The notes under the pieces were generated by a model. That model was not told the origin of the DNA. It did no database searches and was given only the letters and a program-made list of their open reading frames with translations. From assembly GCF_048128805.1 (NCBI RefSeq), contig NC_136010.1:16500480-16564479 (forward strand): DNA of 64,000 bases, written 5' to 3'. Below, in pieces: positions 14,901 to 63,126 of the stretch. This stretch comes from Centroberyx gerrardi. Lineage: Eukaryota; Chordata; Actinopteri; Beryciformes; Berycidae. The translations under genes were made by a program, and so were the position numbers. How positions within the stretch are numbered: the first letter of the stretch is position 1; each line of letters opens with the position of its first letter.

Positions 14901-17900
14901 ATATTGTCATACCAATTGCACTACCATGCCCCAAACACTCCCTTGATATCACTTTATCCAGGTCAATAACCAATCATCCAATGAAGAAATCATGAAAACG
15001 ACCTGTCAGGCGAGCAGAAGTGACCACCGTCTGCATTCTGGTGCCGTGACAGAACGCAAGGTGTGACTCTAACTCCGGGGACGGCAGCGTCACAGTTTGC
15101 CGTGACAGATGGTTGGGGAGATTCGTCCCAATGGCGATTATGCAAGGAAGTGTGATTTTCGCTCTGTCGTACTGGCTCTGTGTCGGTCTGGCAGTGTGTG
15201 CAGGCCCTCCTCGCGTAGCGCCGTAGCCGTCTGCCGGTCCGCACATCAGAACACTGTGTGTATCTAGAGCCCCGAGGGAGTCAGTTAGCATTCACTTACT
15301 GTCAAGTTATCCTGTGTCACGGTGGCCTTGGCTGACCCTGAGTGGGTCATGTCCACCCTGACAGAGAGGGAGGGGGGCTTAATGCGGTGCAGTTAACCTG
15401 TCGCCAGAATTCACTCTGCAGCACTAGTTTGTTGGGGTAAATATCTGTGCTACTTGAGGACATGATATTATCACAGTATGCATCCAAACACAGTCTCACT
15501 GCCATTAGCTGTTGGAATCAGACTAAATATTTTCTGGATGCTGTTGATCCTACCATTTACCAGGTGGTAGTTTGGCAGCCCTAGTAGGCCGACGTGTTTA
15601 AATATTTCACACTCCAATGTTTGGTGGAGAGGCGGTCGAGCATCTGCAGGGTTTACATAGCACCGTGTCTGTTTTGGAAAATAATTTATTCTCAGAAGCA
15701 TCAATTAAAGCTAGAGTGTGTGAAGCCATTCCAGAGATTCATGATCGCTATAGAGCCTTAGAGCCTTTTTATTACATAATAATACATTTTACGCTACATT
15801 TTTACTTTACGTTGCATTTTTGTCTGTTAGAAAGGTATCAGTGGACAGAGAAAAGAAAAAAAAATGGGAGAGGATCCACAAAAGTGAATGACCAAAACGA
15901 CCGGTACAGTGTGTATATTGTATGCACTGTGGCACACTAAGCCAGCAAATATTCCTGAGCTTTAAATTTTTACTAGGCTTTCAGTAAGTATCTGGTAGTA
16001 AACCTTGAGTGAGCATCTACTGTGAACAGTTCGATGGCCTGGTGTGCTGTGTTAGGTTGTCAATGTTTTACAATCAATAAAAAGAAAGACTGTACTGGTG
16101 TGGTCAGAAAACCCCCCCGAAAAAAAACGAATACATCTGATGTAATGTGAAGAAGCGACAGTATGTTCTTAGTCTTTATAATATCATGCGGCTTCTGTAC
16201 TTTTGACCATATTTGATCCCATCTGCACTTTTTCATTCAGCACAAACAGCAGGATTGGCTGCTGCCTGCCAGAAGGCTGTTTCTGTTGAATGTTGATTTC
16301 CAGCCGTCTAATGAAGGAAGTGGTTTGTGTACAGTGTATGGGTGTGTCGCCTCACAGTTCAAACACATTAGTCTGCCTGTGAAAAGTAAAAGTACTGTAC
16401 CACCGAAAAGAATGAATGTCAGTTATTGAGCAGGTGGGCACCACAAACACCCGTGCCTCGGTTATTTCTAAGGGACTGTTAAAGTTATATTTGCTCTGTC
16501 ATTCTCCTCTAAACTGGACTTTGTAACAGTCATTGGAACAGTGAGTCGTCTATTCGCCAAACATGATGCAACTGTCGTTGGTCACTGATTGGCCCTTAAG
16601 GTGGTGTAGACTTTGGTTTCCTGGAGGAGCCTGTGTACTCTGGACTTCACTAGACTGAAAGAATGGTGGACAAAATATGGAGGAAGAGTTGGCATTTTAT
16701 AGAAAATAGAAGGTCTTTCCGCACTAGGCAAACCTCTTCTAGTGATGCAGAATGTAAGAGTGAGTGAGTAGCCTCTCTTTTTTTCCATTGTTTTATGTGT
16801 ATTATAGGAAGTAATCCCCTGCGGACGATGGATGATGCTGTATAATTTATAGACACTGTCTGACGTGGCATTTTTATTCTCTGAATGTAGCAGAGCAAAA
16901 TCTATGGTGTACTTCTACAGTCATATTTCTAATAGTAATTATTACAGACCCACTTACTCACCAGCTTTTTAATCAGCATACAGTGTTGAATGAAATGTTG
17001 GTTGTATATCTTGAAAGTTGTGGGATCAGCACTTCTCAGAAATGGCTGGCTGCATTTATTTACACACACCTCTCTCTGTCCTCTCTCTAACCACTGACTC
17101 TGCAGTTCACTTCTCTAGTGCCATATGCTCATTTACATGTTCAGTAATGGACTACACTACTGTTTTTAAGAATTTCCTTTATAAAAGCTCCTGCTGAACA
17201 GAGTTATGCAGCATTCACCACTCGGTACATGATTCATAGTATTAGACTGACAGGCCACAAGTCCCTCAAATGTCCTTTTCGCTCTGACTGCACTTGGTAA
17301 GGAGGATCAGACAGTTGAAAATTACCTGATAAATTATGTCTGGATCACATTCTCACTCTCAGTCTGTCAGCAAATTGAATTGTCATTGACTATTTCCTAG
17401 CAGGGGGAAAATTAAATCTCTTTGTTCTCAGATTTTGATTATATCTGTTGGTAACCAAGCTTTTCTTCTGTCATTGCAGTGTGGAAGGGGACGGACGGCC
17501 CAATGAGAGCGGCCCTTCCCTGGACGGCGGAGCCAGCTATGGCCGGGGGCCAGTGACTCACGGCTCGGCCATCAGCCCGGACCGTTTTGACAGCCCGCTT
17601 TACGGCCACGGGGTCCAGCCTGGGCCTCAGAGGCCCCGTCGGCCCAAGCTCCAGCACTCACAGTCTATCCTCCGCAAGCAGGCTGAAGAGGAGGCCATCA
17701 AGCGCTCCCGTTCGCTCTCTGAGAGCTATGAGCTCTCTGCTGACCTCCAGGACAAGCAGGTACTCAAAACCTGCCTCCCGGAATAATACACTACTGTAGA
17801 GTCAACTTCAGTCTAATGGAGTTTCTCACTTTGCTTGTTCAGTTTCATTAGTTTATGCAGAGTTACACAGAATTTTGTCATGTGCAATTTTTCATCAGAT

Positions 17901-20900
17901 GAAAAAACCTGTCCTTGTGTTGTTGTTTTTTACCTCTAGCTTGTATCATTACACTCCTGAATGTCGCCTTTAGGTTGTTCTCATTTGTAGGTTTATTTTT
18001 CTGAAACCTAGCTGTGTGAGATTATTGTTGATGCAGATAATGCGGGTGGAAGCTTATTGTTAGAATGTCACAGAGCTACCGACCACTGGGAGAGCCGAGT
18101 TATCAGTGACATTCAGGAGGATTACATTCAATCCATTACAAACCACCTCAAGCTAAGAAACACAATGCAATATTTCATGAGTGGCACATCCCCTTAATTC
18201 ATTTACTCCCTCTTTTCTTCAGGTGGAGATGCTGGAGCGTAAATATGGGGGACGCTTCATAACCCGGCATGCGGCCCGCACCATCCAGACAGCCTTCCGC
18301 CAGTACCAGATGAACAAGAACTTTGAACGTCTCAGGAGCTCTATGTCTGAGAACCGTATGTCCAGACGCATCGTTCTGTCCAACATGAGGATGCAGCTCT
18401 CCTTCGAGGGCCCTGAGAAAGTCCATAGCTCCTACTTTGAAGGGAGGCAGGTGTCCATGACGGAGGATGGCTCCCCACTGTCCATGGTGCAGTCTGAATG
18501 CGGAGACATGGAGGTCCACCAACAGGCCAACTTGTCACCTCACCCAGCCACCCAGGGTGACCTGACGGATGCCATCACGGAGCTGGAGGACGCCTTTTCC
18601 AGACAGGTCAAGTCTCTGGCCGAGTCTATAGATGATGCACTGAACTGTCGCAGCCTTCAGGGGGACGAGGGACCTGATCCAGAGGCCATGGGCTGTCCTG
18701 AGGTGGAGAGGGAAGTGTCCTATCAGGTGAAGCCCCACCGTGGGGCAGCTGGACGCATGCATGATGAAATGCTGGCATCCTACAGTGACGTTACTCTGTT
18801 CATTGACGAGGAGGACATGTCCCCCTCCATCGCTCTGTCGAGGTCAGGCGACCAGCCCTCCAGCATGGAATCGGACTTGCGGCTGCGTTCGGTCAACTCG
18901 TCCCAGGACTACTGGCCTATGGACCCTAAAGACGAGGGCCGAGACACGGACACCAGCTGCCGCAGCACCCCCTCTCTGGAGTGCCAGGAGCAGCGTCTTA
19001 GAATGGACCACCTCCCTCTGTTGACCATAGAGCCCCCCAGCGACAGCTCCGCGGAGCTCAGCGACCGGTCTGAACGTAGCTCCATCAAACGGCCGCCTGT
19101 GTACGAGCCCCACGGCCACATCGTAACGTCGTCCCAGGCAAGCCCCAAACACATTTCCCACGGTCCCCCGCCACGAGCCCCGTCCCGGGACGACGAGGCA
19201 CCTTTACGCCACCGCCACCGGCAGCTGGAGAGCCATCTAGCCATCAACGGCTCAGCCAACCGGCAGAGCAAGTCAGAATCGGACTTCTCCGATGGGGACA
19301 ACGACAGCATCAATAGCACATCCAACTCAAACGACACCATCAACTGCAGCTCCGAGTCGTCGTCCAGAGACAGCCTTCGAGAGCAGACCCTCAGCAAGCA
19401 GACGTACCACAAAGAGACGCGCAACAGCTGGGACTCGCCCGTCTTCAGTAATGATGTTATCCGCAAGAGGCACTACCGCATTGGCCTGAACCTCTTCAAC
19501 AAGTAGGTACTCAGCTGTGATGGAGCAGGCGCTTGACCAGTGATTGGAGTGATTAGGTCCCAGTGAGTGGATGATATGGTAGAGAAGCCTCTTGGAAAAA
19601 CAGAGGTGGCCTACAATCATCACATTCACTCGCTAAGTGTTGCACAATAAACTGCAATCAATTTCATTCATACCAGTTACAAAGATTGGCAAGACCTCTG
19701 CATGAAAAAAAGGAATTAAGAACATAATTTGATTTGTGAGGAGTATTTGACTGCAGTATAATTACATTTCTGTGTTTCTGCTCGTTCTGCATACTAATAA
19801 TGTAAAGACTGATGCGTAAGGCTGAATTTTAATGTTGGCAGAGAAAATACTATGCCTTCTAGTTGAAAATTAACCATCTATTTCCTAAGGCGGGCATTTC
19901 CAGTCAATCAGGAAATCAAACATGCTGTGAGATTAGTTTGATACAAACTGTAGAAGGCACAACGACATATGCTTTCAGAGACGTGACATTTCAATGACAT
20001 GATGCCTTTTATTTGGTTAGATTGTGATTGTGTGTGTGTCTCTGTGCTTGTGCTCTGATAACTTTGAGGCAACTTTGAGGCAATGTAGATCAATCATCAA
20101 CTTTCACCAACAGTTATGACCAACCTTAATTTTTCAGTGTACATTTGTTCGCTATACCTTGTGACACATTTATTTTGTCCCAAATGCAAATCCTCATATC
20201 AAGGCACTGTTACTCATCTGCTTTGCCTCAACAAGTCTAAAGACTAAGCAGATTTTTCTCTCCAGCATGCTGCATCTATCACAATATCAGAGAATGAAAG
20301 AAAAGTTAACCCCCTGTCCATGTTTTTGATCTTTCAGGAAGCCAGAGAAGGGCATCCAGTACCTGACTGAGAGGGGATTTGTCCCCGACACACCGGTGGG
20401 TGTGGCTCACTTCCTGCTGCAGAGGAAGGGGCTGAGCAGGCAGATGATTGGAGAATTCCTTGGCAACAGACAGAAACAGTTCAACAGAGATGTCTTGGAG
20501 TAAGTATGATCTTTAATCAACCTGCCCCAACTTTTTCAAGCATGATTGCATAAAAGTTGTCAGAAGACAGATAAATACAATAAATAATACGTCATATATT
20601 TATTAAAATCCCTAACCCTAGTGTCCAAATTCCCATCCCCATACATACCAACATACTGAAGTAATTTGGAGCAGAGCAGTGAAATGAAAGGGAAAAAGTT
20701 CTGCTGTGTCTTTTTTTTTTATTGAGAGAGACAATATGTGCTGAAGTCTCGGGGCCATCACTGCAGAGAATTTAATAAGGGAAAAAGAGACGCAGAATGA
20801 GAGACACGGCACAAAAGCTCCCTCCAACCCAACTCATTAAGATCCCGCAGGTGATAAGGATGACTGGTTGTGTAAATACGACCAGAAATCCCTTGTTACG

Positions 20901-21102
20901 TCCTCTTTCACAAACACAGAGAGAGATATCCTCCGCGATATAATCTGGGCCAAACAAGATTCGCCCGGCTTAAAAGGGTCTTGCGTTCTTGTGAAAGATC
21001 AAAGAATTAGTGGCGAGCAGGAAAACTGGTGCGCTGTGGTATGTCTTGTTTTAATTTTCTAGGATGTGGTAGCGTCCTCTTGTTTCATTCTCTATCTTTT
21101 CC

Positions 21103-21148
<46 letters not shown>

Positions 21149-24100
21149 AGCTGTGTGGTGGATGAGATGGACTTCCAGGGCATGGAGCTGGACGAGGCCC
21201 TCAGGAAATTCCAGAACCACATCCGTGTCCAGGGGGAAGCCCAGAAGGTGGAGCGCCTCATTGAAGCCTACAGGTTAGAGCACACACACACTGACTGACA
21301 AGATGGCATTTAGACATAGAGGACGGGCCGTTTATTATGCTGAGCACTCTGGGGGGGGGGAAGAAACCCAGAGGCACTGATTAGCACAGCAAAGGGTTAT
21401 GACTCAGGGAAGATAGAGGAGAGGAAACACTGGATATGTCTGTCGTTGGTGCCCCAGATTTCTGTAACACCTGTGTGGAAAACAAATGAATCGCTATGAT
21501 CTTTAAAACGCACTGTAGATGCTGAATGTATTTTCAGAAAACTGAATATGCCACAAACACACACACACACATGAATAAATGCATGGTGTTCGCAATAGTG
21601 GAAGGATTTTATACAATCTTTTATAGATTTTTGAACGTGTTTGAAAACAAAGTCACTGCTGCTGGTGTTCCTCACAACTGTATTGTCTGGATGATTTATT
21701 GATGCATAAAGGGAGCCGGTGCTAGCATTACTTCTGCTTGAGTAAATGTAGCAGTTCCTCACGCAATGATGAAAAAACAGTGACTCAGTAGGTATGACAA
21801 GAGCCACTGACTACAGCTATGGCCAGATATCTATTGGACCAGGATTTCCCCACTATGAACGTGACTCATATAAGAGTAGTTGTGATCTGGGTTTAGTAAT
21901 ATGTGATTTTGTTCTCCCTTGTCATGTCTCTAGCCAGCGCTACTGCATCTGTAACCCCACAGTGGTGCGGCAGTTTAGGAACCCCGACACCATCTTCATC
22001 CTGGCCTTCGCCATCATCCTCCTCAACACTGACATGTACAGCCCCAACGTCAAGCCTGAGAGGAAGATGAAGCTGGAGGACTTTGTCAAGAATTTGCGAG
22101 GTAACGGAAGCTAAGACTGGGGCTCTGATTCAGGTTCTGCACACAGACTAAGGCAAAGAGAGCAGCACTAGTCTAGGATGTATTCTCTTATGTCTCAGTA
22201 AACATGGCTTTATACACATCTCTATACACAGGACTGATCAAAATATTGTCTGGAACAGAGTAAAGGGCATCGTTGCAACAAGGTCCATCGAATAGCACTA
22301 TTTACTGTGTATTAAATCAACAAAAAAAACATTAATTTCCCATGGAGATGAAAAGAGCACATTTTATCCCCATGGTGACACCAGGTTGTAGCCTGTGGAG
22401 GTGGTGACAGATATTTCTTTGTTAGTTTGGTCTACACAGAACTAGAGTGTCACAATTTAATTAGTTTGTTGATGTGTTAAAGTAATTGCAATATTGTGCA
22501 TATTTATTCATAGTTATAGAGCATCCCACACTCCAAAAAACCAATTTGCGTACATTTTGCAAGCTACATATTTTATGTATTGACATACCTGTACGCCACA
22601 TATATACAAATCTTTTAACCATACACATATACTGTATGTACAAATCATGAGGAAATATACATGTGTGAATAGTCAAATCATGTGTGAATTGTCATATTTT
22701 GAAAGTCAGCTACTGAAAGTGTGTGCGTATGTATTGTGTATTTTTCATTTGCATACTGTATACAGTAACCCAACTCTCCCCTGTGCGTCAGGTGTGGACG
22801 ACGGGGAGGATATCCCCAGGGAGACTCTGATTGGCATCTATGAGAGGATCCGTAAGCGGGAGCTGAAGACCAACGAGGACCACGTGTCCCAGGTGCAGAA
22901 GGTCGAGAAGCTGATTGTGGGAAAGAAACCAGTGAGTAACGTTCACCATCCATTCTACTAAGTTCACCAAAACGTGTTAATTATTTTTAATCAGTGTTCA
23001 CACAGCTGTCTGCTGAGAATCACTTACTGTTAGCGCTGGATATTACACGGTATAATGCCACCTTTTCTCCTGACTTTAGAGCCCAGTTTTACAGAGCATG
23101 AGTCTTTGTCCTGTGTTAAAAGAGCAGGAGGAAAGGGGAGATTTACTACTGCTAAGTCTTTTGTACAGCTGGGTACTGAGAGAAAAGGGAGGCATGTCTG
23201 AGCATAGACCTTCATGCTGGTGACTTTAATGCTCCCGGAGCCCTTGAGGGTGTCGCCCGACCCTGCAGTCTGATGAGGAATGAGCCCTCACTACCGACAC
23301 CGGTCTCCCCGCACATTATAGTCCCTACCCAATTATAGGGAGAGGAAAAAAGCTTTAGTGGCTGAAATGCTTGTCTCCCTAAATACTGCAATGCCACTCT
23401 TTAACTGACCAGCATAAGCTACACTGCATTACTCAGTTGATTCAATAATCATCAATACAATGGTTGGTTGATTTATGTGTGCTCATACTGGGCTGGAGCC
23501 AGCATTTTGTTCTGACTTTGCTCCAGCCCCTCAAGACCGGGGGAGTGCAGCGTTTCTACACTGTTCTGCAGGCAATGATGTCTCTTTCCTGCATGAAGGT
23601 TAAAAGTGTGATTAACCTGTGCAGCTCCAGGGAGATGCTTGTCTTGCATTTTAGACTTTGTTCTGCTTCCCCACCAGTGGGATGGAATATCTTCTGCTCC
23701 GCCAGTAATAATTGAATGTATTGAAAAATGATCCCTCATCACCATTTAGCAGCAAAATTAAAAGCCCAGGAGGACATTCAGTAAAACACATGAACATAAA
23801 AACCACATTGGAATTCCACTCCGTAATAATCGGGCCCAGTGGTGCTGCTCAAAGTGGGCTAATGTGGGAAAATCTGTTTTCTTTCCAACATCATTGCGGA
23901 CTCTGTCAAATCCAGTAGCGAAATAGAGCTTCCCTATGTTAGAAAACCCCCTAGGCATTATTAAGGTGTGTTACTGTGCATCTCCATAGCCCCTTTAACA
24001 TAGCTGCACTGTCGCCAAGGGCAAATCCATAATGGGCCCCTTGCTAAACAGGAGAGATTACATTTACATGTTATTGGACAGTGTAACACATTCTAGATAT

Positions 24101-27100
24101 ATAGCTGTATATAACACATCTTCTCTGTCCTCTCTTTTCAGATTGGATCACTGCATCATGGCCTCGGATGTGTAAGTAGGCTAAATATTCATAATTCATA
24201 CTATATTTGATCATTTTACATTCAGTTCATGGTGTGTACACAAATTCCTCTCTCTTGTCCCTGGATGCCTCACTTAATCCACATTGTGTAGGTACTTGTA
24301 GTGTTGGATTACCTGAAGAAGCAAGGACTTCTGCCCTCTAAAGGGTCACATCTATTACTGAGATGAGCAGACGGTGCTGTGCCTTGTAGACAGAGTCAAC
24401 AGATATAAATTCCTGGGTGGCAGTGAACTGCAGTGTTTACCGATTCTGTGCTGCGCAGGGTGTATATCACTGCTGGGCTGCATGCCGCACAGATGTCACT
24501 CAGACACAGACCACACTGTGGAGCATCTATTTGAATGGAGATTATTACTCAAGAAACCTTTAGAGTAGAGCTGTGTGCACAGATATCCCTATTAATAGTA
24601 CACAGTTATCCCTATTAATAGTACACAGTTATCCCTATTAATAGTACACAGTTATCCCTATTAATAGTACATAGTTACTAGGGATGGGACAATATATCGA
24701 AATTCAATATATCGCAACACAAAAATGTGACAATACATATTGTGGGGCAGATAAATGAATTATGATATTAGCTACATTTTATTCTGCTGTAATAATCACA
24801 AATGAGATGGCTTGCCCATCACAGTTTATCTGCACTTTGTAATGACATTTTGAAATTGTTGTTTATATTCTAGCAAGCCAATGTCATTGCTAGAAAGATT
24901 TGTGGCTCAGATCGTGAGATAAGTGTGTCGGCCCATCCCTAAAAGTTACACTTCTGACCCTTTTACATTTTCTTAATCTCAGGATTCTTGGGTGGTGGTT
25001 ATGAACAGTGCCGGAAAATGGATGACACATTTTAATGGGACGAACTAAATTTAAAATTCCACGGTAACATCCAAAATGTCAGTACACCGCCCCACAACAC
25101 TGAGAATGCTGCGAAGAATGCAAAACACTGGGGAGTGGTGAATTGGTCATCTTTTGGCTACACCCTCCTTAAAGTCTGGTCAGAGGGAGGGTCAGTTCTG
25201 TTCCTTATTACCCAGTGGACCGAGGCCGTAATGACCTCTAAGTGTCGGTGTGTGTGTTGTTGTTTTCCTGCCCTGTAGGTGCTGTCCCTGCCCCATCGCC
25301 GGCTGGTGTGTTACTGCCGCCTGTTTGAAGTGCCAGATCCCAACAAGCTCCAGAAGCTGGGCCTGCATCAGCGGGAGATCTTCCTGTTCAATGACCTCCT
25401 AGTGGTACAGTCCTCTCTTCTACTCCTCTCCTCTCCTCTCCTCACATTTATGTTTCCTCTCAAACTCTTTTTATCCAACCCTCACAATATTCTCTCTGTA
25501 TGATATCAGGTAACTAAGATTTTCCAGAAGAAGAAGAACTCGGTGACGTACAGCTTCAGACAGTCCTTCTCTCTGTATGGGATGCAAGTCATGCTGTTTG
25601 AGAATCAGTGTAAGTTTCTTTTCTCAGCCCATATCTCTTTAGTGTGTTAGCCCAGAGTGTTTACATCAAACTCCACAGGGTTTGATTTAGCACAGTAACA
25701 TATGCAGCAGAAATAGGAAGTCAAGCCAATGGACTGTGACATTGTTTACACTCTCCGGACTTCAGACAGACTCCTCCACGGTGTTTTAACTTGGTTTTGA
25801 TCAATGCCCCGTGTGTAAATGTCTCTCCCTCTCTGTTTGCCGTTTGCCCAGATTACCCAAATGGAATCAGACTTACATCAGCGATACCAGGTGCGGACAT
25901 CAAAGTCCTCATCAACTTTAACGCGCCTAACCCCCAGGACCGCAAGAAGTTCACAGACGACCTGCGGGAGTCAATTGCCGAGGTCCAGGAAATGGAGAAA
26001 TACAGAATAGAGTGTGAGCTGACTTTTTTTTCCCCTCCCATCCCCCTCTCTCTCTCCCTCTGTCTACCTCGGGCCGTGTAAAGTAGAAACGGGGCATGGT
26101 CCTCATTACTCAACTGCAGTTTATGAGGGAGAATGTTTACAGAGTTCACAGGATGGCTACCAGAGGGAGAGCAGTTTTTTTTCCTGGACAGTCAAAAAGG
26201 CCTTTCAGTAATGACAAATGAGAACAGGATGTCGGAAATGCATGCAGATTGATAGTTTACATATTCATGTGTTTGAGGCGGTGCTGGCTGCGATGAGACG
26301 TCAGTATAAGCAAACCGCCGCCGCTTACCTCGCTCCTTGCGTGCGTTTCCCTCCGCAGCCGAGCTGGAGAAGCAGAAGGGGGTGGTGAGGCCCAGCATGT
26401 CGCAGAGCTCCGGTCTGAAGAAGGAGGCTGGCAACGGGAGTATGAACCGCGCCAGCCTGGATGACACCTACGCGATGGGAGAGGGCCTGAAGAGGAGCGC
26501 CCTCAGCAGCTCCCTCCGAGACCTCTCCGAAGCAGGTACAGCCAAAGCTCGCTTGTCTTCACCAGCTGGTCCTATCACGGAAAAAAAGCGCTCTCCTTCT
26601 GTCATCCACTCTCTGTGATGATATCAAGGGGATAGAAATAGCAAAATGTTGTTTCACGGCACCATACATTGATTTTAGAGCTCTCCCCCCCATAAATCCA
26701 CAACCTCTCACACTCACTGATTAGATTGTTTTGGTCTGGGCAATGTGTCCTTAAGCGTTTTAACTTCTTTTGTATTCATTATAGTGTGTTTTAGAGAGAC
26801 TTAAGGTGTGCTCCACTGTTTTTCCAATTCAAAGACTGAATACAGACCTATTTGTGAACAGATTAATTGTTAAGAAAAACAATAAGATTGATTTCTCCAG
26901 ATCTGTCTTTCCACCGTTGAATGAAATTGACGGGCAGTTCTCACCCCTGATCATTTGGATGAGTTTAGTGATGAACATCGTTCATTTATGTTTTTCTTGT
27001 CACATTATTTACTTAGCACTTTTGCATTCCTCATGCAGTTCTTATGTTTTTTCCCCGAAAGCATTCCATGATAAGCTTGTTATATGTTTTATCAATTCAA

Positions 27101-30100
27101 AAATCACTCAGTCATTTTTCTCTCATGTATATTTGTGAATCAAATAAAAACAAATACAGCGCTGATGTGTACCATTCTCAAGCAGCAACAAGTCAAGACT
27201 TAGCTTCGATCTTGGTGTTAACAGTCATTTCACATCCATGAATATCAGCGTCTAACACAGCGCCTCTGTCTCCGAAGCAATACACTTTGAATACATCTCA
27301 TTCATTCCAGATAACAGCTATGCGAAGTTATCGGTTGATTAACTTGATAACGTAATGAAATCCAGTTAGGGGTGCTGTCTCACTGTTGGTAATATGATAT
27401 GCTTTGTTCTAATGATCATATCCTCACTACCTCAATGGGTAAATGATAGCTCAGTCAGTGAAGAAGTCGATAGCGCTCATGATGCCTCCGCCCTCCTGTC
27501 TCCTGTGTTTTTATACAACTTTCTCTACGCAGGATGTGGCATGATAGTGGGATCATTCTTGTGAACAATGTTTTTTCTTTTTTTTTTCCTTTCCCGCCAT
27601 ACTCCATTTCATGCGTACTTACTGTTATTCCCATACACATCAGGTATTTTCCTGTTTATGTGTGATTATCGGTCATGTATCATTGGCTGAGTGTGCCTAA
27701 CAATGGCAAAAGTGCTGTGTTTGCCCTCAGCCCTGTATTTGCCTGTACATCCCATGTGCAACAGCCATTGTATTGCTTTTGATGTGTCTCCTCCTTTGTG
27801 ACTGTCACTGAGACTGGCTTTTAGCCACCCTTGACCCTTATGACAATCTGCATCTTGTGACAACATTAAGAACAAGTTGTCACATTTTATCAGCTCTGGG
27901 AAATACTCACCCAGATTTAGATATTAACGACGAGTGTTCAGTAGTTCACCCGCAATCTTCAGGTGAAATTGCACTGTGGACATTTCCTTGGTCTCTCAGA
28001 CTTGATGCTAGGGGAGTCTATATTCATTGAGATTTATGAAAATGTATTCAAATTTTGATTTTAGTATTACCTGAGTGAGCCTCCAGTTAGAGGTACATGT
28101 ATCAGATTGTGAATAATGTTTTACAAGACAAATGGCTCACTTATCTACGCAGCTTTAGGTTTCAATCTGAGTGAACCCTGAGTTAAAAATGAAAACCATG
28201 ACTTCACCATAAAGATAGCCACAATACCCACCACCTGTCCCCCACCACTCTCCCAGACCCCCTGAACCCCTTACCCCCTCCCCGCCCACATTTGGACCTT
28301 ACTCACAGTCACAATCTACTGCACCGCCCCCTATGGGACTGGTGGGCTGCCTAAACCTCTGTAGTTGATCCAGGAGTGCTGTCCATCTCTAATCTGTGGT
28401 ATTGCATGTCTCGGGCAGGCAAGCGGGGGCGTCGCAGCAGTGCAGGATCACTAGACAGCAATATGGAAGTAAGTTGGAAGCAGCTGGTATCCAAGCTACT
28501 CTCTATGTGATGATGTGCACTGTCAAAACACACCATTTATTTTTGGTCTTGCACCTTCTTTGCTTCATAGACTCAGTTCATTCGTTTGGATCATTTATTT
28601 TTCTTCCTGGGATGCCTTATAACCTGCCTGCCTCGGTTAGTGTGCATGCATGGGTTGCCTGCCTCTGATCCTGCCCCTGTTTGGAAGCCAGAGATCTCCT
28701 GTTTTGGTCATGTTATGTGGCCAATATACCCTTTATCTTGAAACAAGCATGACTCTACTAATCCCCCCCCTCTGATCCCTTCCCCTTGTCGCCTGTCTCT
28801 GTCATAGTTTACTGTCCTTCATTCAATCACGTCCAAGCAGTCAGACTTTTCTTTTGGTTCTTCTTCTCCTCTAAGGCAGGGTGCTAGTTCTGTTTCTCTC
28901 AGCCAGTAGGGATCTGTGTATTTCCTGCAGCCCCTCTCCCTGTCCAGGTGACCAGGTCTGTCTCTTTCTTCCTATCCACAGCCTCTACTTAAACCACGTC
29001 AGGTTCAGGGAGGAACATAGCCTTTATGGCCAGAGGTCTACTGATGGGCTTCATACAGACTTATAAAGATGTGGATTTCATTCATTCATCTTTCACTCAT
29101 TCCATGTCTCCATGAGTTCATGTGTTGGGCTGAAGTCTGGAACCCTGAAAATTTCATTCCACTTTCAAAGAAGTCATATGGTCTCTCTCCAGTCTTAGAT
29201 GAAGCATGTGCCAAAAGGAGCAGCTGTTAAACCTCACAGAATGATGAGAGTTCATCCTGGATAGTGGATAGTGTTGGACCCAGAAGAGGGGGAAGGTGTC
29301 CAGGCCTGTTGGGAAGCGTGCACACCAGAGCTTAATCCCTGCTGCCTTCTGCCTTCTAGTTGAATGCTAACCTGTGGATGAAGAGTTTGCCTGTCACATC
29401 CTCTGCATGTGGAATCTATGCCTCCATTGATTTTAACAAGTTGCATGTGTGACTCTTGGCAGGTTTGGGACATTGACTGCATTGAGGATGACATTGAGAT
29501 TGAAAATTCTTGTCTTTTCTGCTCTTGTTATTGTCATTATTTATGCCATTTACGGCTTTTATGTACAAAGTCCTGTTCCTGATTTAGTGTGTCAAAATAT
29601 TGTATTTTTCAAAGCCTGGACCAGTTAGCTCGAGCTCCTAAACCTTTTTGTTTTGGACATTTGATCATCAACAGAGCTTTTATGAATATAGGCTTCCTTC
29701 ATCATGAAGTGTTTGCCAAAGCTGAAACATTCATAGTCTTGCTGCTCCCCATCATGAAAAGAACATTTTTAGTTTGTCATTTGCATGCCCTATAACATTT
29801 TGCTACTTGTTGTTTATCTTAAATATGCAGACTGTGAATTCTTCCTGCTGGTGCCTTGTAGCTGTGGTTTAGTAGCTGTTGTGCAGTCTGTGGTGTGTAG
29901 TCTCTGATAGACATGCTGTCACCTTCTTCCCTCCTGCAGGGGTCCATCATTAGCAGTCCTCACACGCGCCGGAGAGCCACCACCCCACGTGAAGGCGCGC
30001 CCCGCGGCCATCCCTCCATCCCTAACTCGGCGTCAACCTCCATCCTCGGGTCGCTCTTCGGCAGCAAGCGAGGGAAGCCCCCGTCCCAGAGCCACCCTCC

Positions 30101-30476
30101 TCTCCCGCACGGTCACCCCACCCTCATATCCCACAAGCCCCACCCGTCCAACCTGCACCACACAGCACAGGCAGCACACACGGTGCAGGCCCCGCACCAC
30201 GGTCTCGGTCATGCCCAGTACTGCCAAGTCCAACAGAACCCGCCGCCTTACCACCACCACCACCACTACCACCCCCCTCCCCACACACAGTACCACCAGC
30301 ACCCGGCGTACGCCTCGCACCCTCACCAACACGCCCATTCGCAGCACAGCCATCACAGCCAGCATTCCCATCACGCCTCGCACCCCCAGCATGCTCCTCA
30401 CCACCACAGTCAGCAACCGGGTCCGGCGCCTGGCGGACCCAAACCCAAACACAGTGGCATCAGCACCGTAGTGTGA
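11778..30476 (+). CDS. iqsec1: IQSEC1 (BRAG2), ARF guanine-nucleotide exchange factor, 14 coding exons
   Basis: Exons: 11778-11842, 17480-17759, 18223-19502, 20338-20499, 21151-21273, 21934-22100, 22792-22931, 24142-24171, 25279-25404, 25510-25609, 25852-26013, 26359-26535, 28419-28468 and 29940-30476. All introns are GT-AG. The exons sum to 3399 nt, in frame, 1132 residues; I recall human IQSEC1 as about 1114. The start ([20 protein letters not shown]) matches a known IQSEC1 isoform start. Domains in order: IQ motif about 131-155 ([13 protein letters not shown]), Sec7 about 532-735 with the catalytic glutamate finger at E581 ([10 protein letters not shown]), PH about 740-880, then a Ser-rich linker and a His/Pro-rich tail ending STVV, a class I PDZ-type ligand. 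Known role of the family: activates ARF6 in endocytosis, integrin recycling and postsynaptic receptor traffic. The copy (iqsec1a or iqsec1b) is not assigned. Confidence 0.96.
11887..11965. repeat. (GT)n microsatellite in iqsec1 intron 1
   Basis: A GT tract with TGCT interruptions, starting about 45 bases after the first coding exon of iqsec1. Confidence 0.95.
11966..17479 (+). other. iqsec1 intron 1, non-coding
   Basis: About 5.5 kb without a recognisable exon. It contains the C-run array at 14019-14051, a T-run near 14481-14496 and AT-rich stretches. Open frames of up to about 140 residues near 13630-14080 lie over a simple GA- and C-rich region on both strands and are not credible genes. 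Confidence 0.7.
14019..14051 (-). repeat. C-run array; four-tract G-quadruplex motif on the minus strand
   Basis: Four runs of C (7, 6, 6 and 5 long) are each separated by AAA. On the minus strand this is four G-tracts with TTT loops, which meets the usual G-quadruplex pattern and resembles ciliate-type telomeric spacing. It lies in iqsec1 intron 1, next to a GA-rich stretch. Confidence 0.85.
18223..19502 (+). CDS. iqsec1: iqsec1 exon 3: IQ motif and serine-rich linker
   Basis: The largest exon (1280 nt, leaving two bases of a Lys codon). It begins [11 protein letters not shown], carries the IQ motif, then the conserved block [15 protein letters not shown], the segment [21 protein letters not shown] (a likely coiled coil) and the conserved Ser/Asn-rich stretch [16 protein letters not shown]. 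It ends at the first Sec7 residues, [11 protein letters not shown]. The open frame extends 42 bases upstream of the acceptor at 18222, so the first in-frame ATG there is intronic, not a real start. The donor is AA|GTAGGT, splitting the Lys codon. Confidence 0.95.
20338..22931 (+). CDS. iqsec1: iqsec1 exons 4-7: Sec7 catalytic domain
   Basis: Exons 20338-20499, 21151-21273, 21934-22100 and 22792-22931 encode the bulk of the Sec7 domain. Recognisable blocks are [20 protein letters not shown] (catalytic Glu), [65 protein letters not shown] and [13 protein letters not shown]. The second Sec7 motif (the [18 protein letters not shown] block) is intact, so the exchange domain looks functional. Exon 5 has a (TG)19 T4 AG acceptor, noted separately. 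Confidence 0.95.
21107..21150 (+). repeat. (TG)19 T4 AG tract at the 3' splice site of iqsec1 exon 5
   Basis: Nineteen uninterrupted TG dinucleotides (21107-21144) are followed by TTTT and AG, and the exon starts at 21151. The microsatellite takes the place of a normal polypyrimidine tract. Confidence 0.93.
24142..25404 (+). CDS. iqsec1: iqsec1 exons 8-9: 30-nt microexon and start of the PH domain
   Basis: Exon 8 (24142-24171) is a 30-nt microexon encoding [10 protein letters not shown], between a TTTTCAG acceptor and a GTAAGT donor. Exon 9 (25279-25404) continues [20 protein letters not shown] and ends LLV. The human protein has the near-identical IGSLHPGLGC at this junction. Both exons are phase 0, so skipping exon 8 would keep the frame and remove ten residues just before the PH domain. 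Confidence 0.93.
24584..24675. repeat. 23-bp tandem repeat, four copies
   Basis: Four head-to-tail copies of a 23-bp unit (TATCCCTATTAATAGTACACAGT). The first three are identical and the fourth has C-to-T in the last part. It lies in iqsec1 intron 8, directly against the hAT-type element. Confidence 0.93.
24671..24949. mobile_element. Short hAT-type element (MITE) with 8-bp target duplication
   Basis: The element body is 24679-24941 (263 bp). It has inverted ends TAGGGATGGG and CCCATCCCTA. It is flanked by ATAGTTAC (24671-24678) and AAAGTTAC (24942-24949), an 8-bp target-site duplication with one mismatch. An 8-bp duplication is the hallmark of the hAT superfamily. No transposase frame exists, so it is non-autonomous. 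The interior is AT-rich, with ATATATCG repeats next to the left end. Confidence 0.8.
25510..26535 (+). CDS. iqsec1: iqsec1 exons 10-12: PH domain and following helix
   Basis: Exons 25510-25609, 25852-26013 and 26359-26535 encode [19 protein letters not shown], the [10 protein letters not shown] segment, [20 protein letters not shown], and [18 protein letters not shown] up to SLRDLSEAG. The PH domain of this family binds phosphoinositides, and the C-terminal helix packs against Sec7. Codons split at each junction match the human protein: Y in QYY, S in IESE and G in EAGKRG. Confidence 0.94.
28419..28468 (+). CDS. iqsec1: iqsec1 exon 13 (50 nt)
   Basis: A small exon too short for an ORF scan, between a GGGCAG acceptor and a GTAAGT donor. 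It encodes [16 protein letters not shown], nearly identical to the human [16 protein letters not shown]. It contains an RRSS basophilic-kinase-like site. It is needed to keep the frame between exons 12 and 14. Confidence 0.92.
29940..30476 (+). CDS. iqsec1: iqsec1 terminal exon: His/Pro-rich tail with STVV end
   Basis: The last coding exon follows a CTCCTGCAG acceptor and encodes 178 residues, from [14 protein letters not shown] through [14 protein letters not shown] to a tail of His, Pro and Gln repeats, ending GISTVV and TGA at 30474-30476. The human protein has the same block order and, as I recall, ends GISTIV, so the PDZ-binding end is kept. A long alternative frame exists in this exon only because the CAC/ACC-rich composition lacks stops. 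Confidence 0.95.
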   Translation, partial: GSIISSPHTRRRATTPREGAPRGHPSIPNSASTSILGSLFGSKRGKPPSQSHPPLPHGHPTLISHKPHPSNLHHTAQAAHTVQAPHHGLGHAQYCQVQQNPPPYHHHHHYHPPPHTQYHQHPAYASHPHQHAHSQHSHHSQHSHHASHPQHAPHHHSQQPGPAPGGPKPKHSGISTVV

Positions 30477-32345: not shown

Positions 32346-35228
32346 TTTTTTCATTTCAGAATATATAAATACTTACTTACAGAGTTCACAGTGGAAAGAG
32401 GAATGTGTATATATTTTAATAAAGGAATATGCTTCCCTTTGGGCTGAACAGAAATATTTTGCTGGATAAGCACATATGAAAGAACACTTTCATTTTTTTC
32501 AGGAAATGCAGTTATAATATACAGCAGAAATGCAAACTGAACAAAGGAACTGGGTATATGTAAAGAATAAGAACTTTCTACATTCTACAAATAAGAGTCT
32601 ATTATAGTGTGTAAATTAGTGACAGTAAACTGTTTGTCCCAATATTCAGGTTGTAAATGTATTTTAACATTCACAAAGAAAACCATTGCCATAAGTCAGG
32701 CTTACACTCACACATTTCTCCTCATGTGATACTCATATTGTTATTATAATAAGGAAGAAAGCTCAGAAGAGAAACATATCTTATGTGGGACATTAATGAT
32801 CAGTTGAATGTGTCTTTCTATTGATTTCATATTTCTGCTATGATTCTGAAATCTTGGGATGATGTAAAACCAAGGCATCTGTTTATTTTTGGTGTGTGTT
32901 GTAGTGCTTCAAATGTCCACAGTCATTTAGTGTGAGAAGAAACCCCAACAATGCACTGCATGGATCTGATGCATCATGTGTCCTATTCACTGTGAGCTGA
33001 CTGGAAAAAATCAGCCTGTAAAGTTTGACCTCTCCTTTTGGTTTTGATTCATTTGGAATTTCCTGATGTTGACTTGCTCTTGCTGTTCCATGTTACGCTG
33101 ATAGGTATAGAAGCTCAGCATGCATTTCATCAACATAGCCATTGTATAAAGAGCAAACATGAAGACCATTGCACTTCTGTTAGATTTCTGAGGGCTTTCA
33201 TCGTGTAAATAGGGGATTTGATGTGCAAACTGATGAATTTCTTGGAAGGAGGGTTTATCTTTATGAAGTTGTAAAGGGACCAAGAGGGGGGGGGAAGGAG
33301 CTGTACATAATGTGTATATGATCAGTACTCTATTCTGATATCTGCAGTTAAGATCAGGATGTATACACATCGCCTCATTAGAGGGATGAGAGGGGTGATT
33401 GTGAACATATCGATTGTCTCTGCCTCCAGCTATAGTGAACTGTCATTTGCTGTAGATATCAAAAACAGACTGTTAGAAAGTTCGCTGCCATTTACATCCA
33501 CAAAAGCTCTCTTTCACACATGCGACCTTCCCCCATACACACACGCACTCATACACGCAGACATGCACACATGCACATCCCACCATGCTGCAAGCTGTTC
33601 TGTCAGGCGAGAGACACATTTTAAAAAAAGGGAAAGACAAGAGTGGCCTCATTTCTATGTGCATTCTGTTTGTACAGTGAGTAGTGAGTCAGTAAGACCC
33701 CAGTTATTGTAAAACTTCAACTGTGACAATGTTGAGAACGCAAAATAAACAAATATATGACTTATGGTATGCATGTGTTGTTCTTTGCTATCCAACGTAT
33801 ACAATAATTTACCATTCAATATAAAACACTTCACTTTATGGGTTGCCCTGTCAACCATTGTCATACTTATATTATATTCTTTTGATTTAGATTTGTCTCA
33901 TGCATTTATTAGCTTCTTATCCTGGGTCTCTCATACTACCATCCCCTGCCTGCCTGGCTCTCACAATGCTTCCCACTAATTTCACCACATTTCCACTAGA
34001 GGGCATATATAAAATCGATATGAAAAGGGGAAGGAAAATTTGTGCCATTACACCACCTATGGGTAAAAAGTGAACCTGCTACATGGTAGCTCACTGGAAG
34101 AGTCAGAAATAGGATTTGTTCCATATAAACTTACATAGATGTGTAAAAACATTTCTTGGATCATAGATATTGTACAGGAACAGTAACAGGGCATCCTATT
34201 TTCCTCCTTCATCCTCATTGGAAAAGGGCATTTCAGCCTCAATACACGTCCATACGACTGTGTCCCTCCCTTTGGTCTAATTTCCCCCATAAACATTTTC
34301 TGTTCAGTCTTGAGCTCATTTGATATTTGGCTGTACCATATTTCTTATATATTTTTAAATTCCCATAAAGCTCTATCTCTCTAACAGCTGTGTTTTCAGT
34401 GAAGTGTCCCCTGTAGGTTCTGCACTACAGCATATATGTCAGTAACGCATACTGTGTAGAACCACTTTAAAAAAGCCTCTGCCACTGTTTTTAGTAGATA
34501 AACTCTTATCTTCTTTCCACAGATGGATTCCCCTCAGGTCAAATGGGCCAAAAACGCGCACTGTCATTGGTGGGTTCCTCACACTGACGTTGTTCTGTAT
34601 TGAGTGTACGATTATTCTGAGGGTTTAATAACATGTCAGTTACAAAATGGAGAGGGGTTCAAGTCGGGAGAGTTTTTGAGGTACTCTCAGAACTTAAAAG
34701 CAACATTGGACTAAACACCAGTGAGTTGGGCTTGGACAGAGGACATGCCTTAAGGATGACTGGGAGCACAAGGAATAACTTCCAAGTTGGCTTGACACTG
34801 AAAGGTTTGAATTCATTTAGATACTTTTAATGGTGTTTGACACTTTGTCAGTAGCTGACACAATCAATTGGCCATATCTCATCACATATCTTTATTACAG
34901 TTTATGGATGCACAGGAATATTTTAATGTTTTGTTCACCTCATAGATGGGTTCATTTTTGGCATGGAGTAAAACAGGATTCTGGAGATTGACCACTTTTG
35001 TTTGTGGCTGGATGCTAACCTTGCATTAAAATTAAATAGCTTTGAGCGCTATACAACGAATGATTTTAGAATACTGCAATATAAAGAACTGAGTGCTGCA
35101 CAGTAAGCATGTTCTAAAAAATCCTCACTGTCTCATAATAATGCTTTCCTGAATACTGTGCAAAATGTAAATTACAGGTGTTTTTGTCATTGATAAGACA
35201 GTTAATAATCTCTTCCTGATCCTGCAGG
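32346..35228. other. Intergenic region between iqsec1 and gp9
   Basis: AT-rich sequence with a CA-rich patch near 33530-33590 and no supported coding exon. A TTCTTTCCACAG acceptor-like string before an ATG at 34523 opens a frame of fewer than 30 codons and is not convincing. A TGATCCTGCAG acceptor at 35217-35227 lies directly before the gp9 ATG, so a non-coding gp9 exon probably lies in this interval, but I could not place it. Confidence 0.5.
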
Positions 35229-35975
35229 ATGCTCTCCGGTTCAGGCCTAGCAGTCTTCCTTCTGTTAGCCACATCAGGTGCACAGACTATCGCTCAGCCC
35301 TGCCTTTGTTCAGCCCTCCAGCCTGCTGGGCTCCAAGTCAACTGCAGCTCTCTGGGCCTGATGGAGGTGCCTCATCTCCCCTCAGACACTACAGAGCTCC
35401 ATCTACAGGACAACCAGTTCACTACAGTATCTCCGGGCCTGTTTGACAGACTGGCTGGTCTGAGGAAGGTCTCCCTCTCTGGGAACCCCTTCCACTGTGA
35501 CTGCAGGATCCAGTACCTGAGGAACTGGCTGCTGAGGAACAGGGCTGTTGTTTCTGGGGAGCCCACCTGTGCCAGTCCCAGCGCTGTGGCACAGACAGCC
35601 ATCACTGGACTCAGCGATGACTACTTCTACTCCTGTGGCCGGAAAAGCTGTGTTGGAGGAACTTATGACGCCCTGATGGGGATGATGCTGTGCGGCCTTA
35701 TTGTTCTGCTAATGTGGGGCCTGAGACTGGCGAAGAAGTCCACCTTCACTCTGGACATTTATGAGAGACATACAGGATTTGAGGCCGAGTCTTTGCGATC
35801 GCTGAAGCCCAAACACAGGAAGAGGCTGCAGAGGTCGCTGTCAGAGGTCAGTGGGAACTCCGATTCTCTCACCTGGACAGAGGATCTAGAAAGGCCGCTT
35901 CTCAACATGGAGTTATTGCCACAAATACTGGATGTCTTGCACAAAAAGCACAATATAAAGATAAAGGCCACTTGA
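35229..35975 (+). CDS. gp9: Platelet glycoprotein GP9-like, GPIb-IX-V family
   Basis: A single coding exon of 248 residues. Signal peptide about 1-23; LRR N-terminal cysteines C25, C27 and C39; one leucine-rich repeat (TELHLQDNQFTTVSPGLF); LRR C-terminal cap NPFHCDC...C114...C136; a further cysteine at C141; one membrane segment about 148-167; cytoplasmic tail about 168-248. The ALxxxGLxVxC opening and CASPS motif match GP9, and human GP9 lies near CNBP, so I call gp9. The DTTEL phrase, the extra juxtamembrane cysteine and the long basic tail resemble GP1BB. Human GP9 has about 177 residues with almost no tail. Role of the family: subunit of the thrombocyte/platelet von Willebrand factor receptor. 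The ATG sits one base after a CCTGCAG acceptor. Confidence 0.78.
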   Translation: MLSGSGLAVFLLLATSGAQTIAQPCLCSALQPAGLQVNCSSLGLMEVPHLPSDTTELHLQDNQFTTVSPGLFDRLAGLRKVSLSGNPFHCDCRIQYLRNWLLRNRAVVSGEPTCASPSAVAQTAITGLSDDYFYSCGRKSCVGGTYDALMGMMLCGLIVLLMWGLRLAKKSTFTLDIYERHTGFEAESLRSLKPKHRKRLQRSLSEVSGNSDSLTWTEDLERPLLNMELLPQILDVLHKKHNIKIKAT

Positions 35976-51898: not shown

Positions 51899-59407
<7,509 letters not shown>

Positions 59408-62339: not shown

Positions 62340-62359
62340 TTGGTCAGAGATCCCCTCAT

Positions 62360-62566
62360 CTAATGCAGGCACATCTCTTTTTCAGCAGATGGATGAGGCC
62401 AACGTGGTGTGCCACCAGGGGGCGCAGGTCACTTATCTTCTGCAGCAGCTTAGCAAACAGCTGTGGGGGTCTGGGTGGAAGGTCTTCAGCTGGAGCTTCA
62501 GGGCCTGCAGCACCTTTTCCTGGAAGTCTTCAATGGGCTTCACATTCACCAGGCCAGGAAATTCTC
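62360..62566 (-). pseudogene. Remnant of the last exon of a PPARG-like nuclear receptor
   Basis: Read on the minus strand, the region encodes [20 protein letters not shown], then [11 protein letters not shown], and, after a one-base shift, [20 protein letters not shown] followed by VGLIHLLKK. A second disruption follows, then MCLH directly before a TAG. This order matches the C-terminal ligand-binding-domain exon of PPARG (human [50 protein letters not shown]). NVKPIED and QLFAKLLQK favour PPARG over PPARA or PPARD. The final activation helix (LLQEIYKDLY) is missing, there are at least two frame breaks, and conserved residues have changed, so it is read as a pseudogene relic. No other PPARG exon was identified in the window. 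Orientation is convergent with raf1, as in human. Confidence 0.85.
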
Positions 62567-62661: not shown

Positions 62662-62754
62662 ATATATATATCAGCCCCCCCCCCACCGCCGCATGCTCCT
62701 CCCCTTCTTTTGTCTCTCTCTGTTTTCTCTTGTCATCATTGTTGCCCATGACTC

Positions 62755-63108
62755 TGTCAATGTTTTGCCCGGCACCTATTGCACGCTAAGCCGTCCCGGG
62801 GGGGGATCCCTATCTGCCTCAGCCCACCCAAGGTTTCTTCCAAATTTTTTCCTGGGAGTTTTTCCTTGTGTGCATTTAGGGTCTAAGGCTGGGGTGCCGG
62901 GTAGGTTAGGCTATATAGAATAGGTAGATTGTTTGTCTCGCTAAATCTGCTCCTACCTACCTTGTGTTTTTCATCATGCTGTCCTACAAAATTTTGTTTA
63001 CCACTGATTGTGTTTAGTTAGACCTAGCTAGACACACTCTCTGTAAAGCCCTCTGAGACATGCTTGTGATAAAGGGCTATATAAATAAATAAACTTGACT
63101 TGACTTGA
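62755..63108 (+). mobile_element. L2/V-SINE-like retroposon 3' end
   Basis: The sequence contains phrases typical of the 3' ends of teleost L2-type LINEs and the SINEs that share their tails. These include CCCAAGGTTTCTTCC near 62827, TTTTTTCCTGGGAGTTTTTCC near 62844, then TGTAAAGCCCTCTGAGACA and GGGCTATATAAATAAA near 63044-63090. It ends in three tandem TTGAC-type repeats (63093-63108). No reverse transcriptase frame is present, so this is a truncated copy or SINE. It is bordered by TA tracts on both sides. Confidence 0.7.
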
Positions 63109-63126
63109 CATATATATATATATATT

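Follow-up and report, generated by a model that had tools for sequence, protein, structure and literature searches.

Loss of the second pparg gene of teleosts has been described in the main texts of three papers (PMC5438977, PMC8774674, and PMC11201486). As far as the pparg sections of these sources go, a single pparg was found in 9 of 10 teleosts, with the second locus devoid of pparg in most of the species examined (Wafer et al. 2017, PMC5438977), and both copies were kept in herring, sardine, pike, salmonids, channel catfish, cavefish, and piranha (Pascoa et al. 2022, PMC8774674), the last of which is listed both ways in the corresponding part of PMC11201486. In the main texts of the papers on PPARgB, loss means that the gene was not found at the locus; here, in contrast, a broken last exon is present. 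The strings "raf1" and "pseudogen" occur 0 times in the texts of PMC8774674 and PMC11201486 (figures and supplements excluded), and no pseudogene or remnant of pparg is described in the literature searched, which consisted of main texts with few subscription journals among them.

RESULTS

A broken pparg last exon near raf1

The window analyzed here is a stretch of 64,000 nucleotides (C14:16500480-16564479). Its features around the relic are as follows.

52319 to 59186, plus strand: raf1 (Ras-binding domain through a late kinase exon), in convergent orientation with the relic
62354 to 62376, minus strand: remains past the second deletion, with MCLH-like letters and helix 12 unreadable (weak alignment)
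62377 to 62463, minus strand: second part of the decayed exon, in a shifted frame (QLFAKLLQK...HLLKK), from translation and alignment to the C5 exon
62466 to 62558, minus strand: first part of the decayed pparg last exon (ends FHPDP), in frame until a 1-base deletion
62559 to 62565, minus strand: what was the intron/exon boundary, including an acceptor-like AG, placed by eye against the intact exon
62690 to 63110, plus strand: young interspersed repeat of 421 bases, CTTGA-rich at its tail and flanked by TA runs; it lies within what was the last intron, at about 130 bp from the exon

An earlier note on this DNA had described a minus-strand stretch at 62360 to 62566 that aligns with the C-terminal exon of PPARG. 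Comparison by blastn with the last exon of the intact pparg on contig C5 bore this out: minus-strand positions 62377 to 62558 are a broken last exon of pparg, with 79% DNA identity over 186 bp (E value of 3.6e-38) and 69% protein identity to the intact gene. In tblastn, the relic matches reached 45 and 43 bits against a maximum of 25 bits for 20 shuffled queries; with scores above the shuffle maximum and such a blastn E value, the match is not due to chance. The decayed exon does lie in the interval first described, but by eye the edge of homology is nearer 62563, beside the acceptor-like AG at 62565-62564.

When the two frames of the relic were joined into a 61-residue query and searched against PDB, the best 60 of 320 matched sequences were all PPARG (top score of 72 bits, E value of 2.3e-19). 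In its own genome, the best other place for the joined relic was the last exon of the intact pparg (C5:16259240-16259422; 69%, without stops), followed by ppara-like exons on C24 and C4 (52% each) and ppard-like exons on C14 (52%) and C5 (48%). The comparison of PPAR isotypes that the earlier note had called for therefore places the relic closest to PPARG. A complete ligand-binding domain (LBD) with helix 12 and a DNA-binding domain are absent; the broken last exon stands alone, and the relic is a fragment of the PPARG (NR1C3) lineage, not a PPARG receptor gene.

Alignment to the intact C5 exon recovered each of the lesions that had been claimed. The one-base frameshift after HPDP is a 1-base deletion inside a C run, the second break removed about 10 bases after LLKK, and two 1-base gaps of opposite sense around codon 12 may be an alignment artifact. 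In the ancestral frame, MCLH-like letters are followed by the early TAG at 62362-62360; the running frame of the first part stops at TAA (62435-62433), that of the second part stops at TGA (62358-62356, counted by hand), and stop codons occur in all three frames. Past LLKK, similarity to the intact exon is weak (P value of 0.013, 1,000 shuffles), and the activation helix (helix 12), reported as missing, is unreadable. These are disabling lesions, and the relic would not be expected to have a working product.

Divergence of the relic from the intact gene

The relic and C5 pparg were compared over 59 codons (two at the frameshift were masked) and differ at 17 residues. Polarized by outgroup sequences, 8 of the differences are derived in the relic and 3 in C5, 3 show both states, and 3 show neither. 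In place of the H and S of C5, the relic keeps Q18, shared with all 5 outgroup sequences, and A19, shared with 4 of the 5. The relic thus preserves residues no longer present in the C5 gene; it represents a separate lineage rather than a copy of that gene. Base differences at codon positions 1, 2, and 3 number 6, 4, and 9 on the relic side and 2, 1, and 4 on the C5 side, with 3, 2, and 7 unpolarized.

The dN/dS check proposed earlier was carried out on the aligned remnant and gave a value between constraint and neutrality (Ka of 0.19, Ks of 0.48, ratio of 0.40). The intact ppard pair has a ratio of 0.07 (Ka of 0.07, Ks of 0.93) and the intact ppara pair a ratio of 0.19 (Ka of 0.09, Ks of 0.48). 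The ratio of the relic fits a gene that was first constrained and freed later. Two calibrations put the share of time spent neutral at 0.64 (0.18 to 1.72) or 0.40 (0.11 to 0.98), which is too wide for a date and may be an overestimate if living gamma-b genes evolve fast; death at the duplication itself is less likely but not firmly rejected by the 59 codons (P value of 0.02 or 0.19, depending on the calibration). The main text of PMC11201486 gives gamma-a/gamma-b LBD identities of 56 to 67% within a fish; the relic exon is 71% identical to gamma-a, a figure for 59 last-exon codons that is not strictly comparable with those for the LBD.

One could suppose that the loss is very old and that the exon is readable at 79% identity because selection still maintains the remnant for another use, as an enhancer or as part of a noncoding transcript. 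This exon is indeed recognizable where the other exons and the flanks are not, and about 0.25 substitutions per site in total seems low for a pair in which one copy has been drifting since the duplication. However, differences between the relic and C5 peak at third codon positions (11, 7, and 20 at positions 1, 2, and 3), a pattern left by former selection at the protein level, and the exon has suffered internal deletions. We consider such re-use improbable. Retention of two ppard genes in this genome beside a pparg of euteleost form, together with the readability of the relic and the low total of substitutions, suggests that this second copy was lost late, long after the duplication.

Genomic place of the relic and paired neighbors

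Synapsin exons lie on the minus strand 6.0 kb upstream of the relic (C14:16568872-16570843) and on the plus strand upstream of the intact pparg (C5:16190865-16209164), so that the order and orientation of synapsin and pparg are identical on the two contigs; by place, the gene is named syn2. On C5, 50.3 kb separate the 3'-most synapsin match from the end of pparg, versus 6.0 kb on C14. Further synapsins occur on C8 and C24. A TIMP gene lies on the opposite strand within the C5 synapsin gene, and none was found on C14. There is a ppard gene on both C5 and C14. The gene at window positions 17439 to 30476, which we take to be iqsec1 (a profile search found its Sec7 exon), has a partner at C5:30984553 with 86% identity and is likely another ohnolog pair; the C5 member is 14.7 Mb from pparg, and other iqsec1 relatives lie at 19.2 Mb on C14 and on C4 and C24. 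Queries with CAND (TIP120), which matched C5 at 7.1 Mb and C24, and with Ribosomal_L10 gave no C5/C14 pair. The one-sided TIMP gene, the distance and further relatives of iqsec1, the extra synapsins, and these unpaired queries weigh against reading C5 and C14 as one doubled region. Elsewhere in the window, a single-frame leucine-rich-repeat open reading frame of 251 amino acids (35220 to 35975) has a membrane-spanning stretch by eye and two Pfam LRR matches, both below the cutoff; it is presumably glycoprotein-Ib-beta/IX-like.

On the other side of the relic, coordinates and strands confirmed that the exon is convergent to raf1, which was identified in PDB by a score of 354 bits to RAF1 versus 254 to B-raf. 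Human PPARG and RAF1 are likewise convergent. The relevant part of PMC3022923 mentions that MKRN2 and RAF1 overlap in antisense, and the map of the pparg locus in PMC5438977 includes raf1. In this genome, raf1 is on C14 only: the two other places at an E value of ≤1e-8, on C24 and C8, show 77 to 79% identity and are interpreted as araf and braf, and no second raf1 was found in the genome search at this threshold. The earlier note had proposed to look for an intact pparg beside the other raf1 copy. An intact pparg does exist, on C5, but it is not beside a raf1 because no other copy of raf1 was found. Of five raf1 exon queries run on 60 kb near the C5 pparg, two gave 23 to 24 bits (E values of 0.008 and 0.015, without a shuffle control), both inside the pparg gene. 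With raf1 found on C14 only and the intact pparg only on C5, it is C14 that retained raf1 and C5 that retained pparg. Flanking genes are thus conserved in order and orientation on the synapsin side, and the raf1 side is seen on C14 only.

This setting bears on the possibility that the relic arose recently, by segmental copying or retroposition, from C5 pparg or some other nuclear receptor gene and landed by raf1 by chance. A lone exon is what a small transposed fragment would leave, and a young repeat adjoins it. That repeat was scored at 40 places (its own included) out of 1,995 candidates, all 99 to 100% identical, and by its look belongs to a very young SINE-like family. Yet similarity stops, by eye, at the exon border beside the AG; blastn of the 5.8 kb that separate the relic from the synapsin gene found nothing in the 30 kb of C5 surrounding the intact pparg; the relic has outgroup residues that are missing from C5; it sits between a synapsin gene and raf1; and alpha and delta PPARs match it less well. 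We therefore regard a landed copy as very unlikely. A processed pseudogene, with exons fused without introns at a random place, was rejected, as the relic is a single exon by an acceptor-like AG in the ancestral place.

Remaining pparg exons and the intact gene on C5

A search of the genome (779 Mb, 278 contigs) for an intact pparg elsewhere, as had been proposed, found one on C5 only. Its reading frames place the first coding exon at about 16240976 (by eye) and the end of the gene at 16259479. Two stretches of its LBD match PPARG in PDB (208.8 bits), and the second frame of that LBD stretch had no PDB match; by eye, the LBD exon borders and the full C terminus are present. The LBD has four exons with the loop pieces VTAAHGG and GLAGAHPGPGCGVGGVMGVG, and the loop is close to the consensus given in the PPAR survey of Boukouvala and Krey (2024, PMC11201486) for 4-exon orders except Salmoni-, Esoci-, Gadi-, and Lampriformes. 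According to the same part of that survey, duplicated ppard genes occur in 9 of the 33 orders, with no neoteleost among them; compared with the surveyed neoteleosts, this genome combines the 4-exon loop with two ppard-like genes, both with intact last exons (C5:2300695 and C14:10622109).

Downstream of C5 pparg are a Rap1/terf2ip-like gene, IFFO-like reading frames (a Filament match of 16.7 bits, below the Pfam cutoff of 40), and an aldo/keto reductase (C5:16307031-16308239). The IFFO-like frames and the reductase resemble the iffo2b and akr7a3 that the locus section of PMC5438977 places at pparg in all euteleosts examined. A search beside C5 pparg did not find mrto4; the genome has a lone Ribosomal_L10 match, which is on C5 but at a distance of 8.9 Mb, and a single match suggests that this search was weak. 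A clupeiform, a candidate because that group retains both gamma genes, was rejected on the 4-exon LBD with its loop and on the IFFO-like and reductase neighbors. The fish is probably a euteleost, perhaps from a neoteleost branch outside the survey, although the lack of mrto4 and the two ppard genes speak against a euteleost placement.

Upstream pparg exons just beyond the window would have spoken for a living gene. We searched 110 kb of C14 (the window plus 46 kb) by tblastn with eight exon pieces of C5 pparg. The last exon was the single piece to match; each of the other seven scored below the best of its own 20 shuffles, in the window and in the 46 kb beyond. Genome-wide, the penultimate LBD exon gave five matches at an E value of ≤0.001 (10 candidates scored; a badly decayed piece could escape), namely, C5 pparg, ppara on C4 and C24, and ppard on C5 and C14, one for each living PPAR gene; among these, the isotype was checked against PDB only in the case of the exons of ppard on C14 and ppara on C24. 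Two further regions, on C4 and C83, turned out to be other nuclear receptors. The small contig C83 (47727-50379) repeats a nuclear receptor gene of C4:16148419-16151071 with equal bit scores and is probably an unmerged haplotype.

That the assembly has broken a working second pparg on paper is hardly credible: the first lesion falls in a C run and that deletion alone could be an artifact, but the deletion of about 10 bases, the unreadable helix 12, and the seven of eight exon pieces unmatched in 110 kb without N all speak against it.

DISCUSSION

We conclude with high confidence that the relic is a dead fragment of pparg, an unprocessed duplicate pseudogene in its ancestral place that stems most likely from the teleost genome duplication. 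This is the history that the earlier note had proposed, a pparg duplicate lost while raf1 was retained, and the intact gene on C5, the missing upstream exons, the paired neighbors, the convergent raf1, and the Ka/Ks ratio support it. The assignment to the teleost duplication is drawn from the paired neighbors and the literature rather than from a tree.

In the history we propose, C5 and C14 would descend from one doubled region, most likely through the teleost genome duplication, and each copy would have had a synapsin gene, then pparg and, past pparg, raf1 in tail-to-tail orientation. On C5, pparg (gamma-a, locus 1) would have survived, with raf1 not found there; on C14, raf1 would have survived and pparg (presumably gamma-b, locus 2) died. 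The upstream pparg exons of C14 may have been deleted or randomized; the stretch from synapsin to the pparg end is 6 kb there versus 50 kb on C5. The last exon would then have acquired its frameshifts and stops and lost helix 12, and the young repeat would have inserted beside the decayed exon.

A gamma-a of neoteleost type (4-exon LBD with the shared loop, IFFO-like and aldo/keto reductase neighbors downstream), a duplicated ppard, and a gamma-b exon that can still be read are together the basis for a more tentative reading, on which gamma-b remained functional deep into the neoteleost radiation and disappeared there late and repeatedly; we would not yet favor it. If it were true, the ending of delta and gamma duplicates outside Neoteleostei would reflect several late losses and not one early loss. 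The relic bears on whether a regulator of fat and immunity was lost in teleosts early and once or late and repeatedly, and its letters could help date the loss through related fishes. A remnant in place also shows which copy died, with pparg and raf1 kept on opposite chromosomes.

Among described systems, the site is like the teleost pparg locus 2 (PPARgB) as presented in the main texts of those papers, a second postduplication pparg locus with conserved neighbors. As in unprocessed duplicate pseudogenes that follow a genome duplication in general, there is decay in place, with conserved neighbors and an intact partner, and we see no difference in kind. The kind of event is known and is an ordinary outcome of genome doubling; the physical relic is a new instance of it.
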